Positions 41,636-61,825 of a stretch of 64,000 nucleotides of DNA are shown in pieces. Source of the stretch: Phycisphaera sp. (lineage in GTDB: Bacteria > Planctomycetota > Phycisphaerae > Phycisphaerales > SM1A02); the NCBI GenBank assembly GCA_016124975.1, contig WGMP01000020.1, positions 1-64,000 on the forward strand, read 5' to 3'. Positions within the stretch are counted from its first letter, which is position 1, and each line of letters opens with the position of its first letter. Under the pieces are notes generated by a model that was not told the origin of the DNA, made no database searches, and saw nothing but the letters and a program-made list of their open reading frames with translations. The position numbers were made by a program, and so were the translations under genes.

Positions 41636-41777
41636 AGGTTCTGTCTGACGGATCACCGAAGCCCAAGGTCTAAGGCTTTGGGATTCGCGCGGCGCCCGGC
41701 TGGCAAGGAGTCGAAGCCGACGCGGCCAGCCGGGATGCCGCGTGGATCGACGGCCGGGGATCCGTCAGACAGAACCT
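41636..41777. mobile_element. MITE-like or structured element with 19-bp inverted ends
   Basis: AGGTTCTGTCTGACGGATC (41636-41654) and its exact reverse complement (41759-41777) bound a 142-base unit with no coding capacity. Inside are a 10-bp stem CCCGGCTGGC (41695-41704) with GCCAGCCGGG (41725-41734) and a smaller CCCAA/TTGGG hairpin near 41662-41682. The right end overlaps the histidine kinase stop codon (41776-41778). Perfect terminal repeats and small size fit a non-autonomous transposon. A structured RNA or recombination site is an alternative. No transposase or clear target duplication is seen. Confidence 0.65.
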
Positions 41778-43458
41778 AGCGCAGGTCGCGCGTCGACTCG
41801 ATGAGCTCGCGAACGAGCGAGAGCAACGCCGTCGGCGCGAACGGCTTCGACATGAACCGCTGTTCGCGGCGAAGCCTGCCGCTCGTCACGGTCTCGTCGT
41901 CGGTGTGGCCCGACATGAAGACGGTGGCGATCGGGCCGCGTAGCGCCGTGATCCGCTGCATGAGCTCGGGCCCCGTCATCTGGGACATCACGACATCGGT
42001 GACGACGAGATCGATCGGCTGCGGGCGCTGCACCCGCGCGAGCGCCTCGCTTGGGTCGGCCGCCGCCGTCACCTCGTATCCCGCGCGCACGAGGAGCTGC
42101 TCGAGCAGCCTGCGAACGAGGGGCTCGTCCTCGACAAGCAGGATGCGCTCGCCGCGTCCTCCGACCGCTCCGGTCTCGGCCACCGTGCGGGTCACCGCGG
42201 CCTCCGCGTCCGACAGCGGCAGCGACACTCGGAACGTCGATCCGCGGCCCGGCTCCGACTCGACCTCGATCGATCCACCGCACTGCTGGACCAGGCCATA
42301 GACCGTGGCGAGCCCGAGGCCGCTTCCCTTGCCGACATCCTTCGTCGTGAAGAACGGCTCGAAGATCCGCGCCTTCGTGGCCTCGTCCATGCCCGTGCCC
42401 GTGTCGCGCACGGCGATCTCGGCGAAGCGACCCGCGCCATCGTGTCCCGCGGTCGCTGGCCCGACGCGCACCTCGAGCACGCCGCCGAGCGGCATGGCGT
42501 CGCGCGCGTTGAGGCACAGGTTCATCACGATCTGCTGGATCGCCGTCGCATCGGCCCACACCGGGCCGAGCGGTCCCGTCTCGACGACGCGCACATCGAT
42601 CCGCTCGCCGATCAGCGGCCGAAGCAGCGCCTCGAGCTCGCGCACCTCGCGCACGAGATCAAGCGCCATCGGACGCAGCACCTGTCTTCGGCTGAAGGCC
42701 AGCAGCTGGCGCGTGAGCGATGCGGCACGGTCTGCGGCCTTGCGCATCTCCTCGACCCATCCTCGCACGGGGTCGTCCGCCGCGAGGCGCGACAGCGACA
42801 GCGTTGCGTATCCCTGGATCGCCATCAGGATGTTGTTGAAGTCATGTGCCACGCCGCCCGCGAGCCGACCAACCGCCTCCATCTTCTGGCTCTGCCGCAG
42901 CTCTGACTCGAGCTTCGCCCGCAGGTCGAGCTCGCGCGCCATCTCGTTGTTGCGGACCTCGAGCGCCTCGGCGGTGGCGCGCAGCCGCTGCGTCAGGAGA
43001 TGAAGGTCGGCAAGCGTCGACTCCTGCGACTGGAGCAGGATCAGGAAGTCGCCGCGCGAGTCGTGCGGCGGAAAGTCGGCGAGCGACAGACCGAAGCGCG
43101 CAAGATCCGCGATGCGCGTCATCCACGGCCCGCCGACGAAGAGGAGGCGCGCGCCGTCCGCGGTCGGGTGCGACACGAACTGTCCGCGAAGCCTGAAGTC
43201 GCGCCGTGACCGCAGCGCGACGAGGAAGACATCGTTCGGGCGCGTCCGCAGTTCATCGAGGCTGGTCGCGGCCGCTGGGCGCTCGACCTCGATCACCTCG
43301 AGCAGTCGCGCACCGACTGTGACCTCTGGCGCCAGCGAACTCCAGCGTGCCCCGGCGGCGACGATGCATCCGTCGGAATCCGCCTCGAGGAAGAACGGAA
43401 AGAGCGCGCGCAGCATCTCGGCGCCTCTCGCGTGCTCGCCTGCGGCTCCACCGCTCAT
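41776..43458 (-). CDS. HNOBA-type hybrid histidine kinase, partner of H-NOX
   Basis: This 560-residue protein starts at ATG 43458, overlapping the H-NOX stop (ATGA). Residues from about 15 to 130 resemble the HNOBA/PAS-like domain that pairs with H-NOX (FPFFLEADSDGCIVAAG, then GARLLEVIEVERPAAA). A coiled coil and the phospho-acceptor His205 in GGVAHDFNN follow. The ATPase motifs are MNLCLNARDAM, DTGTGMD and GKGSGLGLATVYG. A receiver domain follows (LVEDEPLVRRLL, acceptor Asp in VVTDVVM, Lys in FMSKPF). No membrane segment, so it is cytoplasmic. It should respond to nitric oxide through the adjacent H-NOX protein and relay phosphate to its own receiver; the output is unknown. Confidence 0.93.
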   Translation of the reverse strand: MSGGAAGEHARGAEMLRALFPFFLEADSDGCIVAAGARWSSLAPEVTVGARLLEVIEVERPAAATSLDELRTRPNDVFLVALRSRRDFRLRGQFVSHPTADGARLLFVGGPWMTRIADLARFGLSLADFPPHDSRGDFLILLQSQESTLADLHLLTQRLRATAEALEVRNNEMARELDLRAKLESELRQSQKMEAVGRLAGGVAHDFNNILMAIQGYATLSLSRLAADDPVRGWVEEMRKAADRAASLTRQLLAFSRRQVLRPMALDLVREVRELEALLRPLIGERIDVRVVETGPLGPVWADATAIQQIVMNLCLNARDAMPLGGVLEVRVGPATAGHDGAGRFAEIAVRDTGTGMDEATKARIFEPFFTTKDVGKGSGLGLATVYGLVQQCGGSIEVESEPGRGSTFRVSLPLSDAEAAVTRTVAETGAVGGRGERILLVEDEPLVRRLLEQLLVRAGYEVTAAADPSEALARVQRPQPIDLVVTDVVMSQMTGPELMQRITALRGPIATVFMSGHTDDETVTSGRLRREQRFMSKPFAPTALLSLVRELIESTRDLR

Positions 43459-44009
43459 GCGGATGCCTTCTTCCAACGCACATCGAAGGCGTCGTGCGGA
43501 CGGCCGTCTTCGACGCGGCGGACCGTGATCTCGAGCGCAAGCCCGAAACGCTCGCCGAGGCCCTTCAGAAGCCCGACCACGAGCGGTGCGAGGCCCGCGC
43601 GCTCCGAGTAGTAGTGCAGCTCGAGGCTGTCGTCCGTGGCGTTGCGCACCGTGAAGCTCGGAGGACGAAGATTCGGGAACGACAGTTGCACGCGCGTGTG
43701 CATCTGGTCGAGGTTCGCGAGGAACTCGGGCAGCGTGCGCCCCGCTGTCTTCATCAGTTCGCCGTAGCCGGCGTCGGCCGTGTATCGAACCCAGTAGACG
43801 CCGAACTCCTCGAGGATCGCCTCGGCGGGCACGCCCAGCTCCTCGCTCGCCGCGGCGACAAGTCCGTAGGTCATCTCGTCTCCGTACTGCTCCATCGAGA
43901 CGAACGGCTCATCCTTGAGCCCCGCGCGCATGCGGATGCGGTGCCAGGTCTCCGCGCCGAACCGGCTGCGGACAAGCCCCTCGACGGCCTTGTTGATCAG
44001 CCCGTACAT
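43455..44009 (-). CDS. H-NOX heme nitric-oxide sensor
   Basis: This 184-residue stand-alone H-NOX domain of normal length starts with MYGLINKAVEGLV. The proximal heme ligand is His104 in FLANLDQMHTRVQLSFPNL. The heme-propionate clamp YxSxR is present at residues 133-137 (YYSER). These proteins bind heme with picomolar affinity for NO, lose the iron-His bond and inhibit a partner kinase or cyclase. The kinase gene follows with a 4-base overlap. The 49-bp repeat array lies upstream. Oxygen binding was not judged because the distal tyrosine position was not aligned. Confidence 0.95.
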   Translation of the reverse strand: MYGLINKAVEGLVRSRFGAETWHRIRMRAGLKDEPFVSMEQYGDEMTYGLVAAASEELGVPAEAILEEFGVYWVRYTADAGYGELMKTAGRTLPEFLANLDQMHTRVQLSFPNLRPPSFTVRNATDDSLELHYYSERAGLAPLVVGLLKGLGERFGLALEITVRRVEDGRPHDAFDVRWKKASA

Positions 44010-44100
44010 GCGCGGAAGGGTAGCGGACGGAAGGACGCCGCCAAGCGAGACAGCGCCCCATCTGCCGCAGCGGAGCACGCGCAAACACGCGCGCAAACCC

Positions 44101-44272
44101 CACAGCCGCAAGCGCTCAAACACGCAACATCCGCGCCAAAGCGAGCGGCCACAGCCGCGAGCGCTCAAACACGCAACATTCACGCCAAAGCGAGCGGCCG
44201 CAGCCGCGAGCGCTCAAACACGCAACATCCGCGCCAAAGCGAGCGGCCGCAGCCGCGAGCGCTCAAACACGC
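44101..44272. repeat. 49-bp tandem repeat array
   Basis: Copies of GCGCTCAAACACGCAACAT start at 44112, 44161 and 44210 and a truncated one at 44259, exactly 49 bases apart. The other half of each unit is AGCGAGCGGCCGCAGCCGC, the complement of the palindrome after sucD. There are about 3.5 copies with few changes and no unique spacers, so this is not CRISPR. It fills the gap between rpsG and the H-NOX gene. Confidence 0.92.
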
Positions 44273-53875: not shown

Positions 53876-54017
53876 CCTCGTGCGGCGCCTCCGCAGCCTC
53901 CTCACCGCCTGACCCGCCATGGATCCCGATGTTCCCACCCAGGGCGCGCATTCGATGGGCTCTTCATTTCGGGGTTCCTTCGCAAGGCCACCCCGCCTCG
54001 GTGCCGATAGACGAACC

Positions 54018-54284
54018 GTGCCCAAGGATCTTGCCCGTATTCTCAGCCTCGAGGTTCCGCTGATCGTGCAGATCGCGGAGCGCCGCATGGCGCTCTCCGA
54101 GGTCACGGCACTCACCCACGGATCGATCATCGAGCTTCCGAAGTCGATCGAGGAGCCGCTCGATGTCCTCATCAACAACACCCAGATCGGGCACGGCCTC
54201 GCCGTCAAGGTGAGCGAGAACTTCGGAGTGCACCTGACCAAGGTCTCCTCGCTGAAGGATCGGGTCGGTGCGCTCGGCGGTTGA
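54018..54284 (+). CDS. SpoA/FliN-like domain protein
   Basis: This protein has 88 residues from GTG 54018. An ATG at 53955 in the same frame would give 109 residues and is also possible. The sequence ARILSLEVPLIVQIAERRMAL followed by ALTHGSIIELPKSIEEPLDVLINN matches the SpoA fold of flagellar motor switch protein FliN and of type III secretion C-ring proteins. NTQIGHGLAVKVSENFGVHL continues the domain. No flagellar or secretion genes are near, so its role here is unclear; the C-ring of an operon elsewhere is the likeliest use. Confidence 0.8.
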   Translation: MPKDLARILSLEVPLIVQIAERRMALSEVTALTHGSIIELPKSIEEPLDVLINNTQIGHGLAVKVSENFGVHLTKVSSLKDRVGALGG

Positions 54285-56526: not shown

Positions 56527-57636
56527 ATGCGCACACTCGACCTTCAGTTCGCAGAATCGATCGACTCCGTCTCCCGCGCGCTCGCGGAGTGGACCGTGGC
56601 CACGATGTACGAGCGCAATCCCGCCCTCGCGGCCCGCTATGGCGCGGAAGGCCGCGCGCTTTGGCGCGGCGAGGTGGCGAACAGGCTGCAGTACCTCGCG
56701 GAGGCCGTCGCCGCGGACCGCGTCGGGCTTCTCGTCGATTCGGTGGCGTGGGCGCGCGCCGCGTTCACCGCGCGCGGGATGGACGAGGACGATCTCGTCG
56801 AGAGCCTCGTCGTCCTCGAGGAGACGCTGCGCAGCGAGCTGCCGAAGCAGATCGGAGAGCGCACCTCGCGCTTCCTCGGCGAGTCGATTCGATGGCTTCG
56901 CCATGCGCAGAGCGCTGCGGCGACGACCGAGGACGACGGCGTGCTGGCGAGCGCGCTCGATGCGCCGGGCGCCGATTCGGTGCGCGCGCGCGACTATCTT
57001 CGGCACCTCCTCGAGCGGCAGCAGTCGCGCGCGGTGGACACGCTTCTCGACGCGGTGCGCTCGGGACGCACGGTCGCCGAGGTCTATGAAGCGGTGATCG
57101 CGCCCGCGCTCGCCGAGGTCGGCCGCATGTGGCACCTCGGCGAGGCGACGGTGGCGGACGAACACTATGTGACGACCGCGACGCAGGCCGCGATCGCCGT
57201 GCTGCGCGGCAAGCTGCCGCAGGCGCCGAGGCACGGGAAGCGCGCGCTCGCGACGAGCGTGGGCGGCGACCTCCACGACATCGGCATCCGCATGGTGGCC
57301 GACCTCCTCGAGAGCGAGGGCTGGCAGGTTGACTGCCTCGGCGCGAACATGCCGACGGCGGACCTCGTCGAGCACGCCGTCGACGAGATGGGGCGACAGC
57401 AGTTCCACCTGATCCTTCTCTCCGCAAGCACGGGCCTCGCCGTGCGCGCGACAGCGGGCGCCATCGCCGCGCTCCGCGCAGCGAGCACCGAGGCGCGCGT
57501 TCCGATCATGGTCGGCGGCGGCGTCTTCACGCGTGTCGACGGGCTGTGGCAGGCGGTCGGCGCCGACGGCTGCGCGAAGAGCGCGTCGGACTCGGTGCGG
57601 CTCGCGCGGGAGCTGACGGGGCTTGTCGCGGTGTGA
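56527..57636 (+). CDS. CarH-like B12-binding sensor without HTH domain
   Basis: This 369-residue protein has an unrecognised helical N-terminus to about residue 150. A four-helix cobalamin-cap domain follows, with MWHLGEATVADEH, exactly the Wx9EH motif (W202, E212, H213) of CarH-type adenosylcobalamin photoreceptors. The Rossmann B12 domain has DLHDIG (D248-H250-G253) with the His that ligates cobalt. LLSASTGLAVR and VGGGVF close it. There is no MerR-type DNA-binding domain; the N-terminal helices may be a new partner or output module. Light or B12 sensing is inferred. A TACATT at about 56454 may be its -10. Confidence 0.85.
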   Translation: MRTLDLQFAESIDSVSRALAEWTVATMYERNPALAARYGAEGRALWRGEVANRLQYLAEAVAADRVGLLVDSVAWARAAFTARGMDEDDLVESLVVLEETLRSELPKQIGERTSRFLGESIRWLRHAQSAAATTEDDGVLASALDAPGADSVRARDYLRHLLERQQSRAVDTLLDAVRSGRTVAEVYEAVIAPALAEVGRMWHLGEATVADEHYVTTATQAAIAVLRGKLPQAPRHGKRALATSVGGDLHDIGIRMVADLLESEGWQVDCLGANMPTADLVEHAVDEMGRQQFHLILLSASTGLAVRATAGAIAALRAASTEARVPIMVGGGVFTRVDGLWQAVGADGCAKSASDSVRLARELTGLVAV

Positions 57637-57867: not shown

Positions 57868-59319
57868 ATGTATAGGTCGGGGAATCGAATCGAAGAGAAT
57901 GCGCGCGCGTGCGGCGCGGGTGGTTCTGCGTGCGTGGCGGATTCTGGGAATGCGTTTCGTGCGCGGACTGCGTGGCGTACGGGGACTGCGTGTCTTCGGC
58001 GCGCGTTGGTCGCGTGGCGCGTCGTCTCGTGCGTCGCGGCCTGCGTTCTCGTGGTCGGCTTGGTCTCGCGCGAGGGCGTTGCAGCAGGCGTGGCGACGCG
58101 TGCTGCAGCGCTCGATCGGCAGGATACGGGTTTCGGCGGACTGTCTGGCAGGCGGGGAAACGCCTCCGCGCAGCGCGAGGTCTGGGTCGAGGTCATCGAG
58201 TCGTTCACGCTGCCGGATGATCCGGAGTGGATGGCGGCTGCGCTGGAGGCGGAGGCGCGCGTGCGCGGCACCGTGCCGCGTGGCGCCACTTCCGACAGGG
58301 ACCAGCTCTCCCGGGTCGTGCCCGGCATCGAGGCGATCTCGCCGACCGAGGCCGCGCGGATTGCGAAGCAGATCGAGGATCTCGGCAAGCGCATCGAACG
58401 CGCCAAGTCGAGCAAGTTCGGAAGCAAGCAGACCGAGGAGCAAGGCGTGAAGCGCGTCGTGGACTCCGTTGAGAAGATCGCCGACTCGCTGCGTGCGACG
58501 GCCGATCGCCCTGCTCCGCTGACCGTCGTACGGCTGTGGGACGGCATCGAGCGGCGCGAGATGCTTGTCGCGCTCGGCCGAGGGCAACGGGCGCTGGCAA
58601 ACAGGCTTGTTCCGGGGAAGCCTGTGCTCGCGTCGATCGGGCCGAGCGCCGTCGGCGAGGACTTCCAGGCGAGACGCGAGACCGTCAAGGCGATCCAGTC
58701 TGCTCGTTCGGCGCCGTCCGAGTTCCTGCGCGTGGAGGACGGATCGAGCGTGCTTCTCGAGCGCGGGTTCGGCGAGGTCGACTCGAGGCCGCAGCGCGCG
58801 GCGGTCGTCGTTCGCGCGACGAAGGACCCAGCGCCTGGCAGCGGCGTGCTCACGCTCGAGCTTCCTGCGCCGCCCGAAGAGCTCGGGATCGACGCGGCGT
58901 ATCCGTGGTATGCGGAGTTCAAGCTGTTCGAGCTCGGGAAGGACGGCGCGCGGGCGCGGGAGGTGTCGTTCAAGGGGGTCGATGCGATCGTTGCCGCGCC
59001 GTGGCTGCAAGATGACCCTGGTCGCCCTCGATCCGCCCGGCCGTCGCTCACCGCCCGCGGCCGCGTCGAGGTGAAGTCGCCTGTGCCGTGGGGATATGAA
59101 GCGGTCGTCGTGAAGTGGTACGGGCTCGCTGCGAAGGATCGACTCGTGTCGACCGCCGGGGGGAACCCCTCGGCTGCGTCCCCGCGTGGCGCGGGTGGTG
59201 CGTCCAAGCCTGCCGCGCCTTCGCAGCCGACCGATGTCACGACGCCGCTCGAGGAGCCCGCGCCACCCGCGCTTCCCGAAGAGCCGCAGACGCCAGGTGT
59301 CCCAGAGAGCCACCGATAG
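57868..59319 (+). CDS. Exported hypothetical protein, first of a pair with the VWA lipoprotein
   Basis: This protein has 483 residues from ATG 57868 after GGGAGAG. A long, cysteine-bearing N-terminal region precedes a membrane or signal helix (VSCVAACVLVVGLVSREGVAAG, about residue 55). A coiled coil (IAKQIEDLGKRIERAKSS) and beta-type segments follow. The C-terminus is Pro/Ser/Thr-rich. No family is recognised. The VWA lipoprotein gene begins 13 bases downstream with its own AAGGAG, so the two are probably one operon. Confidence 0.65.
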   Translation: MYRSGNRIEENARACGAGGSACVADSGNAFRARTAWRTGTACLRRALVAWRVVSCVAACVLVVGLVSREGVAAGVATRAAALDRQDTGFGGLSGRRGNASAQREVWVEVIESFTLPDDPEWMAAALEAEARVRGTVPRGATSDRDQLSRVVPGIEAISPTEAARIAKQIEDLGKRIERAKSSKFGSKQTEEQGVKRVVDSVEKIADSLRATADRPAPLTVVRLWDGIERREMLVALGRGQRALANRLVPGKPVLASIGPSAVGEDFQARRETVKAIQSARSAPSEFLRVEDGSSVLLERGFGEVDSRPQRAAVVVRATKDPAPGSGVLTLELPAPPEELGIDAAYPWYAEFKLFELGKDGARAREVSFKGVDAIVAAPWLQDDPGRPRSARPSLTARGRVEVKSPVPWGYEAVVVKWYGLAAKDRLVSTAGGNPSAASPRGAGGASKPAAPSQPTDVTTPLEEPAPPALPEEPQTPGVPESHR

Positions 59320-59332
59320 AAGGAGATCGATC

Positions 59333-61825
59333 ATGCTGGGGAATTGCCTCTCGCGCTCTCAGACCGTGCTGGCCTCGCGCCTCGCGGCGTGCGGTGTGTT
59401 CGCGTTGATTGCCGCGATGCCTTCAGGTTGCTGCACGCCAAAGCCGACTTCACCCGACCCCGAGCCCGAACACAGCCTCATGGGTCGCGAGTCGGAGAGC
59501 GATGAGCTTCGGGTCGCGCACGCGTCGAGTCGCGGCGGAGTCCCTATGGCTGCGACGGGCGCAGCGGCGTCGCGCGCGTCGGGCGGTGGCGGCTCCGGAG
59601 CCACGGGGCGCACGGGCGGACGCGGCGGGTCGTCAGGGAGCGCGTCGGTTGGTGCGTCGGGGGCGTCGGGGGCGTCGGGGGCTTCGGGGGCTTCGAGTGC
59701 GTCGAGTGCGTCCGGCGGCTCCCCCGCCGCGGCTGCGCCGAACGGAGGCCCGTGCACGGGCGGTTCTGGCGGCGCGCAGGGATCGGGCACGGGCTCTGGA
59801 ACGGCGGGCGGTTCCTCCGCGGGAGCAAGTTCTGGCGCGTCCTCAGGAGCGGCCAGCGGAAGCGCGAGCGGCGGAGCGAGTGCAGCGGGAGCTTCGAGTT
59901 CGTCGGGCGCCTCGGGTGCCGCGGGTGCCGCGGGTGCCGCGGGTGCCGCGCAGGGCAGCGCCGCCAGCGGCTCGAGCGGTTCACCCGCTTCTTCAAGCAG
60001 CGGCTCGAGCGGCGCTGCCAGTGGAGGCACCGCGAACAGGCCTCTCGGACAGACGGGCGGTGGCGCCGCTTCGCAGAGCGTTCCGGGTGGCCAAGCAGGT
60101 GGTGCACAGTCCCCCGCGGGTCCGCTCGGGGGTGCGGGAGGTGGCGCAAGCGGCCCCCGCTCGGGCACACAGCCGACGCCTTCCATCGGTGGAAGCGCAG
60201 GCCCAGCGGATGAACGCACGGGTGAGCCCGCGACAGCGAGCGACGGTGGCGGCACAGGTGGCGGTCGCGGCGGCGGCGGTGACGGTAAGGGCGACGCGGC
60301 AAGCGATGTGCGCGAGCCTGCCGTTCCAACTCCCGCTGCGCAAGCCCGCCCGAAGAGCCTCTTCAGCGATGTGCCTCCCGTCGACGAGGACACTTCGAAG
60401 GGTGTCGACACCCCCGCGGCCGCGCCTGCCGAGATCGACGCCGCGAACGATGGCGCGGACGGGAGGGAGCGCGACGAGGCCAGCGGAACGCTGGGAACCG
60501 AGTCGCGCACCGATGCGCGGCAGCCTGAGGTGCCGACCGTCGGCGGTGTCGGCGATCGAGGCGTCGGCGCAGGAGGCGACGACGGAAAGACACCGTCGGA
60601 TTCCTCGCCTCAAGGCGCCGCGATCGGTGCAGACGAGGCCGTTGCCGCAGCGCCTGATGCGTCCGTCGGGCAGCGAGACGGAGATATGGAGGACATTGGC
60701 CGCACCGATGCGGCCGACGCAGCCACGCGCGGCGCCGACCTCGCGCTTCCCGAGCTGGAGATCGAGCGCATCGATGTCGACGGCACGATCCTCGACCGCT
60801 CGGGCGAGATGAGCCGCCGCACCGCGCACCCCGTCGCGGGGATCTGGGAGCAGATCGGCGGCGCAAACGACGCCGACTTCGGCCCCGGCGGATACCAGCG
60901 GTCCGTGCTGATGCTGAACCCGGCGCTGAAGACGGCCGCCGTCTATCGCGTCTACCGCGGCGACATCGCGCTTGTGATCGGCGGCGAGCTTGCGCTCGAC
61001 GCAGCGCCCGTGCGCGCGCGCGTCGCCGAGGGAACGATGTCGATGCGCGAGGATCCCGCGTCGACCTCGAGGTTCAGGCGCACGCCGCTTGCGCTCGGGG
61101 GAAGCCCCGCGGTGACGGTGGCGCCGCCCGCGGGCGACGGCCCGTGGGAGCTCTCGTGGCGCCGCGACGGCATGGAGCTTGTCGTCGGGGAGAAGCGCTA
61201 CGCCGCGATCACCCGCGAGTCGTTCGAGGAGGTGCGCCGAGGCGGCGGCGACATCGCGTCGGAGGCGGACCTCGCAGACCGCGTGGCAGCGCGGCCTGCG
61301 GAGGCGACCACCCAGCGCATCAACGAGACTTCGTTCTTCGGGCTCCGCGGCGGCGGCAAGCGGATCGTGTTCATCGTCGACATCTCGAGCTCGATGATCC
61401 AGGGAGACAAGCTCGGCCGGCTCAAGCAGGAACTGAGCCAGACGATCAAGGCGCTGAAGCCCGACACGCGGTTCTCCGTCGTCTTCTTCGACGACACGGC
61501 GCACATGATCGACTCCGCGTGGATGCACACGGACGCGGACCGCACGCGGGCGCTCACCGTGATTGCGGCCCAGAACACGGGCGGCGGCACGAACCCGACC
61601 CAGGCGTTCGAGTTCGCGTTCAAGACGCTCGACCCGCTTCCCGACTGCATCTACTACATGACCGACGGCATGACGCCCGTCGACATCGCGGGGCTTCTGC
61701 GCGCGCTGAACACGGGGCCGAACAGGACGACCGTGCACGCGATCGCCTTCGGCGACCGCGGGCTCGAGGCCGCGATGCAGCAGATCGCCGCCGAGAACGG
61801 CGGCACCTACCTGTTCGTTCCGTAG
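59333..61825 (+). CDS. VWA-domain lipoprotein with Ser/Gly/Ala linker
   Basis: This protein has 830 residues from ATG 59333 (AAGGAG before it). Lipobox PSGC (Cys33). Residues from about 70 to 350 are a very low-complexity Ser/Gly/Ala linker (runs of GAS), then acidic disordered sequence to about 500. A small beta domain follows. The VWA domain is at the C-terminus: MIDAS Asp683-Ser685-Ser687 in FIVDISSSMIQGD, Thr in NTGGGTNP and Asp in YMTDGMTP. All metal-site residues are kept, so it should bind protein ligands through a divalent ion at the cell surface. It is convergent with the ExbB/ExbD-like operon. Confidence 0.88.
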   Translation: MLGNCLSRSQTVLASRLAACGVFALIAAMPSGCCTPKPTSPDPEPEHSLMGRESESDELRVAHASSRGGVPMAATGAAASRASGGGGSGATGRTGGRGGSSGSASVGASGASGASGASGASSASSASGGSPAAAAPNGGPCTGGSGGAQGSGTGSGTAGGSSAGASSGASSGAASGSASGGASAAGASSSSGASGAAGAAGAAGAAQGSAASGSSGSPASSSSGSSGAASGGTANRPLGQTGGGAASQSVPGGQAGGAQSPAGPLGGAGGGASGPRSGTQPTPSIGGSAGPADERTGEPATASDGGGTGGGRGGGGDGKGDAASDVREPAVPTPAAQARPKSLFSDVPPVDEDTSKGVDTPAAAPAEIDAANDGADGRERDEASGTLGTESRTDARQPEVPTVGGVGDRGVGAGGDDGKTPSDSSPQGAAIGADEAVAAAPDASVGQRDGDMEDIGRTDAADAATRGADLALPELEIERIDVDGTILDRSGEMSRRTAHPVAGIWEQIGGANDADFGPGGYQRSVLMLNPALKTAAVYRVYRGDIALVIGGELALDAAPVRARVAEGTMSMREDPASTSRFRRTPLALGGSPAVTVAPPAGDGPWELSWRRDGMELVVGEKRYAAITRESFEEVRRGGGDIASEADLADRVAARPAEATTQRINETSFFGLRGGGKRIVFIVDISSSMIQGDKLGRLKQELSQTIKALKPDTRFSVVFFDDTAHMIDSAWMHTDADRTRALTVIAAQNTGGGTNPTQAFEFAFKTLDPLPDCIYYMTDGMTPVDIAGLLRALNTGPNRTTVHAIAFGDRGLEAAMQQIAAENGGTYLFVP

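Follow-up and report, generated by a model that had tools for sequence, protein, structure and literature searches.

A probable photocobilin-type photoreceptor, with its globin ahead of its B12 module, encoded in a Phycisphaerales-like planctomycete

A gene at positions 56527..57636 (+) of the window, by which we mean the whole 64-kb stretch of DNA that was analysed, raises the question of what a CarH-type cobalamin-binding core is doing in a protein whose N-terminus bears no family name. The open reading frame runs from an ATG at 56527 to a TGA at 57634-57636 and encodes 369 amino acids. This start codon matches the N-termini of relatives, and the same frame is open upstream as far as 56086. 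No match to a sigma-70-like promoter was found upstream of the gene, and no cobalamin riboswitch was found within the 64-kb window. Taken together, the Pfam, AF2, fold-match and profile results described below make it very probable (about 0.86) that the gene encodes a stand-alone photoreceptor of the photocobilin type, in which a globin of the bilin-binding type is followed by a CarH-type adenosylcobalamin (AdoCbl) module.

The C-terminal part of the protein comprises the two domains of a cobalamin-binding module. A four-helix cap (residues 148-227, 56968..57207 (+)) is recognised by Pfam as B12-binding_2 (residues 155-226, E 2.7e-12), in agreement with the AF2 model and the fold matches, and the Rossmann-fold cobalamin-binding domain (residues 234-366, 57226..57624 (+)) is recognised both by fold match and as Pfam B12-binding (residues 239-351, E 1.1e-16). 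The Wx9EH and DxHxxG motifs, from which the first-pass annotation had proposed a CarH-type B12 photoreceptor core, are both present at that spacing: W202-x9-E212-H213 in the cap, with Glu212-His213 at 57160..57165 (+), and D248-x-H250-x-x-G253 at 57268..57285 (+), the lower axial ligand site (H250). Among 49 aligned sequences, this one included, W202, E212, H213 and H250 never vary. A combination of GxxW, EH, GxxH and GxxxP motifs has been described as the light-response signature of cobalamin-binding domains (PMC11796333); it is complete here (G199/W202, E212-H213, G247/H250 and G272/P276) and is retained by nearly all homologues in the 49-sequence alignment. Beside W202, H203 is the equivalent of His132 in CarH and is found in most of the aligned sequences. 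The equivalence of Trp202-His203 (57130..57135 (+)) to Trp131-His132 of TtCarH was established by comparison with a Thermus MerR/CarH-type protein (L082, AWHRGEIGVAEEH) and from the homologue table. The nearest folds to the B12 module, among the matches listed, are the photocobilins SasPcob (8j2w and 8j2x) and AbDPcob (8j2y), with Z scores of 25.5-26.3. The next match is a MerR-type B12 domain of Chloracidobacterium (8jbs, Z 23.8), and corrinoid proteins, MetH, AppA/AerR and CarH follow at Z scores of about 20-24 (CarH about 20). The genome also encodes an adenosyltransferase (PF01923, E 7e-62), an AdoCbl-making enzyme. Signature residues, photocobilin and CarH-type nearest folds and this enzyme together give the proposed CarH-type core good support, and the signature residues predict that the module responds to light. 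A second B12-binding-type protein is encoded elsewhere in the genome (L002, 1423-2127 (-), contig C57), with GPSETEEL instead of DxHxxG; because this ligand motif is missing, the second protein is unlikely to hold cobalamin in the usual manner.

Family searches leave the region in front of this module blank. Residues 1-150 match no Pfam family above cut-off, and when the whole protein was searched against Pfam, NCBIfam, PADLOC and PHROGs, none of them assigned the N-terminus to a family above cut-off; a VMAP-M8 match (E 0.12) is weak and was taken as chance. The full-length AF2 model, built from a 25-sequence alignment, has a mean pLDDT of 94. Since the B12 module filled the match list of the full-length fold search, the N-terminus was also predicted and searched separately. 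The model of the N-terminal 148 residues alone has a pLDDT of 92.6, is mostly at 91-98 within the globin, and places helices at residues 3-14, 16-30, 33-63, 67-82, 87-104 and 107-133. The lowest model confidence falls in the linker that joins the globin to the B12 module (residues 134-147, 56926..56967 (+)), where a block of pLDDT 62 spans residues 131-140. Taken alone, the N-terminus can be superposed on phycobiliproteins, allophycocyanins among them (VIA-align, Z 17.9, 1.8 Å for 127 residues), as well as on smURFP (Z 17.6) and the SasPcob globin (8j2x, Z 17.7, 1.8 Å for 122 residues; 8j2w, Z 17.2), the superpositions on phycobiliproteins and the SasPcob globin ranging over Z 17-18 and 1.8-2.1 Å for about 125 residues. 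Almost all of its fold matches belong to one family, and their Z scores lie above the level common for unrelated helical bundles. The search for homologues of the N-terminus that the first-pass annotation had recommended gave a concordant answer: a profile of N-termini only, compared with PDB chains, found the SasPcob globin (8j2x residues 228-337, E 1.2e-8) as well as allophycocyanin beta (E 7e-4). Pfam Phycobilisome is matched by 3 of 14 family N-termini (best E 2e-6), and hhalign aligned the same region with the globins of Streptomyces photocobilin-like proteins (E 1.7e-6), one of which matches SasPcob over almost its full length (5e-81). By predicted structure, superposition, sequence profile and hhalign, residues 1-133 (56527..56925 (+)) are a phycobiliprotein-like globin (photoglobin). 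From the sequence alone, given the blank in Pfam, it was fair to see the helical N-terminus as unassigned; the description of this region as helical and not MerR stands, with helices predicted at residues 3-133, whereas its "unknown type" gives way to the globin assignment. The same holds for the MerR or other HTH fold that the annotation had named as the outcome that would count against it, as both predicted fold and profile identify a globin instead.

A CarH-type module with the light-response signature and a phycobiliprotein-like globin are thus present in one chain, as photocobilins are defined, and the protein has no extra output domain. The globin N-terminus and a B12 module nearest to those of photocobilins identify it as a photoglobin-B12 fusion with the globin first. 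SasPcob and AbDPcob likewise consist of a CarH-type AdoCbl module and a phycobiliprotein-like globin in one chain with the same signature residues, and besides giving the best structural match to the B12 module they are among the best for the globin; their globin, however, is C-terminal to the B12 module, whereas here it is N-terminal. The globin-first order is already reported, as photocobilins have been classed by an N- or C-terminal AdoCbl domain and stand-alone members have been described (PMC10979010). The CarH/LitR proteins of Thermus and Myxococcus share the Wx9EH cap motif, the E/DxHxxG site and the His132 equivalent, but have a MerR DNA-binding domain where this protein has its globin. 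The BBAG-2 bilin-binding globins also belong to the photoglobin lineage and, as here, are linked with B12-binding proteins; globins and partners are encoded there by separate genes in genomes with haem oxygenase (PMC10151467), in contrast to the fusion and the genome without a detected haem oxygenase described here. AerR and AppA, which are SCHIC proteins, have a B12-type fold and, as is expected here, do not themselves bind DNA, but they lack an N-terminal globin and give a lower structural score (Z 20.6-20.7). The first-pass suggestion that a B12- or light-controlled output not acting directly on DNA would be new does not hold, since photocobilins act through protein contacts: they exert light-dependent control of a diguanylate cyclase both by fusion and by protein-protein contact (PMC10979010), and AerR is described as binding B12 and regulating jointly with the transcription factor CrtJ (PMC9144470). 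No cobalamin or light experiments for the clade of this gene were found in the literature. The gene, which is genuine, well conserved and of the photoreceptor type, belongs to a known kind of sensor and does not add a new one.

Whether the globin carries a pigment was addressed through the residues that contact biliverdin in SasPcob and through the enzymes that could supply it. In the profile and hhalign alignments (author numbering of SasPcob equals chain index + 6, consistent with W61 and E71-H72), the biliverdin-contacting Asp270 aligns with Glu49 (codon at 56671..56673 (+)), and Trp296, at the biliverdin D ring, aligns with Trp75 (codon at 56749..56751 (+)). The Trp is kept in 48 of the 49 sequences; position 49 is Glu in the genus of the window and Asp, His, Asn, Ala, Tyr or Phe in others. 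SasPcob further differs in having Gln after the cap Trp, where this protein has His203. No haem oxygenase (PF01126) was found in the window's genome, nor was a canonical one found in 14 of 15 same-genus genomes, and the only genome of the genus that has one (G015) lacks the photocobilin-type gene. DUF2470, which occurs in certain haem-degrading enzymes of other types, was not found in the gene's own genome, and neither was a phytochrome PHY domain. Haem oxygenase occurs in 0 of 18 genomes with Glu49-type homologues vs 9 of 19 with another residue, counts that do not represent independent events because a single genus or family supplies most of the Glu genomes, some of which are incomplete. Five homologues from another family of the class (L064, L066, L067, L068 and L070) have His at the Asp270 position, as in the photocobilin AbPcob, and 4 of their 5 genomes contain haem oxygenase.

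With Asp270 replaced by Glu49 and haem oxygenase not found, it is doubtful that this member carries biliverdin, and the enzyme and phytochrome searches, together with the residue counts, make a B12-only (green-light) mode plausible. A precedent is AbPcob, in which His takes the place of Asp270, biliverdin binding is weak and light control through AdoCbl persists (PMC10979010). Just short of an even chance is therefore given to the reading that bilin binding was lost in the clade, with the globin serving as a structural or partner-contact domain and the protein sensing only green light or the AdoCbl level. Besides the evidence above, G015 included, His203 speaks for this reading, as it would allow a CarH-like bis-His light state. 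Against it, the Trp296 equivalent is kept, Glu for Asp is a conservative change, a bilin could come from outside or through an unrecognised enzyme, and the link between Glu and missing haem oxygenase is confounded by shared ancestry. The same two domains, the retained Trp75 and the acidic residue at position 49 would also suit a dual-chromophore photocobilin like SasPcob, binding both AdoCbl and biliverdin and responding to green and red light; the change from Asp to Glu, and the failure to find haem oxygenase or a DUF2470 protein in the genome, make this reading unlikely, though it deserves serious consideration.

Two further readings would remove the protein from the photocobilins. A non-photic B12 sensor or corrinoid carrier of the MtbC/MtgC type, working with a methyltransferase, is suggested by the best NCBIfam matches by score, which are to MtgC/MtbC, but these reach 64 bits vs cut-offs of 215-370 (350-370 for the MtbC/MtgC assignment), the Wx9EH photoreceptor cap is kept without exception by the protein's own family, and no methyltransferase gene was recognised next to the B12 gene, so that this reading is improbable. 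That the protein might be a CarH-like transcription factor whose DNA-binding N-terminus has escaped recognition could be argued from its CarH-type core and the silence of Pfam; with the N-terminus a globin by predicted fold and profile, we regard the chance of this as minute. An assignment as the CarH transcriptional repressor proper was rejected: the B12 core is present, but a MerR-type N-terminus is not, and the NCBIfam CarH equivalog scores 50 bits vs a cut-off of 400.

For the favoured photocobilin-type protein, a mechanism can be proposed by analogy with SasPcob and CarH. In the dark, AdoCbl would be bound via His250, with its adenosyl group lying under Trp202, and Glu212-His213 would sit at the interface of a head-to-tail dimer. 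On green illumination the Co-C bond would break, the adenosyl group would be released and the Glu-His helix would move; the dimer or the globin/B12 arrangement would then alter, through a loosened dimer or loosened domain packing, and the altered state would be read by a partner protein via direct contact and not by DNA. Once photolysis has occurred, the cobalt may be capped by His203, the part played by His132 in CarH, and since SasPcob has Gln at this position, the light state could here be of the CarH-like bis-His kind. Instead of acting as a second antenna, the globin may have a structural role or serve for protein contact. AdoCbl binding, light response, dimerisation and control of a partner are thus projected from these relatives onto the features in hand, namely the domains, the predicted fold, the signature residues, the homology to photocobilin globins and the adenosyltransferase encoded in the genome. 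A more far-reaching proposal, which we put forward tentatively and consider unlikely as a whole, is that this planctomycete photocobilin branch has lost its pigment (Asp to Glu, without haem oxygenase) and that its globin is only the contact arm of a green-light B12 switch that has a CarH-like bis-His light state and controls a partner.

Within the genus, 13 of 16 genomes have close relatives, which are sparser in the order; across the class, the N-terminal domain is present in 17 of 248 genomes, nearly always, fragments aside, in frames of about 350-415 codons. In one genome (G192), four contig ends (L072, L074, L075 and L076; contigs C40, C20, C28 and C26) all fall within the photoglobin part of this gene family, a pattern that would fit an assembly misled by two near-identical copies. 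Full-length relatives also occur in Azospirillum, Skermanella, Rhodocyclaceae, Hymenobacter and an actinomycete, and more distant ones in Ilyobacter. Outside the planctomycetes, signalling genes are often next to the relatives: a GGDEF gene overlaps the end of the relative in Ilyobacter, histidine kinase genes adjoin those in Azospirillum thermophilum and Rhodocyclaceae, an HWE kinase lies two genes away in Skermanella, and the Streptomyces relatives, which have a C-terminal globin, adjoin SpoIIE/PP2C and STAS genes. A Streptomyces plasmid (L050, 3863-7832) carries a photocobilin-like gene and, directly 3' of it and in the same orientation, gas vesicle genes. The gene's neighbours in the window are metabolic and give no hint of a partner; GH15, FliN-like and fabF do not suggest a signalling one. 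A same-genus relative (L004) shares the order fabF, FliN-like, GH15 and B12 gene, whereas in other genera of the family the gene lies near GH15 (divergent in one), BaxI-like, PhoH-resembling (by eye) or fabF genes; because the order is kept within the genus but varied beyond it, it looks inherited and not like a functional operon. The FliN-like gene, between fabF and GH15 at 53919-54284 (+) as also in L004, encodes a stand-alone FliN/FliM C-terminal (SpoA) domain protein. Elsewhere in the window, 13 kb from the B12 gene, adjacent and slightly overlapping genes for an H-NOX protein (HNOB, E 2e-50; 43455-44183 (-)) and an HNOBA-histidine kinase-receiver protein (41776-43476 (-)) form a nitric-oxide-type sensing pair, and an 879-codon frame at 59186-61825 (+) encodes a long Gly/Ser/Ala-rich low-complexity stretch with a C-terminal VWA domain (E 3e-12).

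The assignment accounts for an N-terminus that Pfam leaves unnamed and gives Phycisphaerales-like planctomycetes a photoreceptor type that has a name and can be tested. With Glu in place of Asp, His beside the cap Trp and a genome without a detected haem oxygenase, this protein offers a natural comparison for the role of the photocobilin globin without a bilin.
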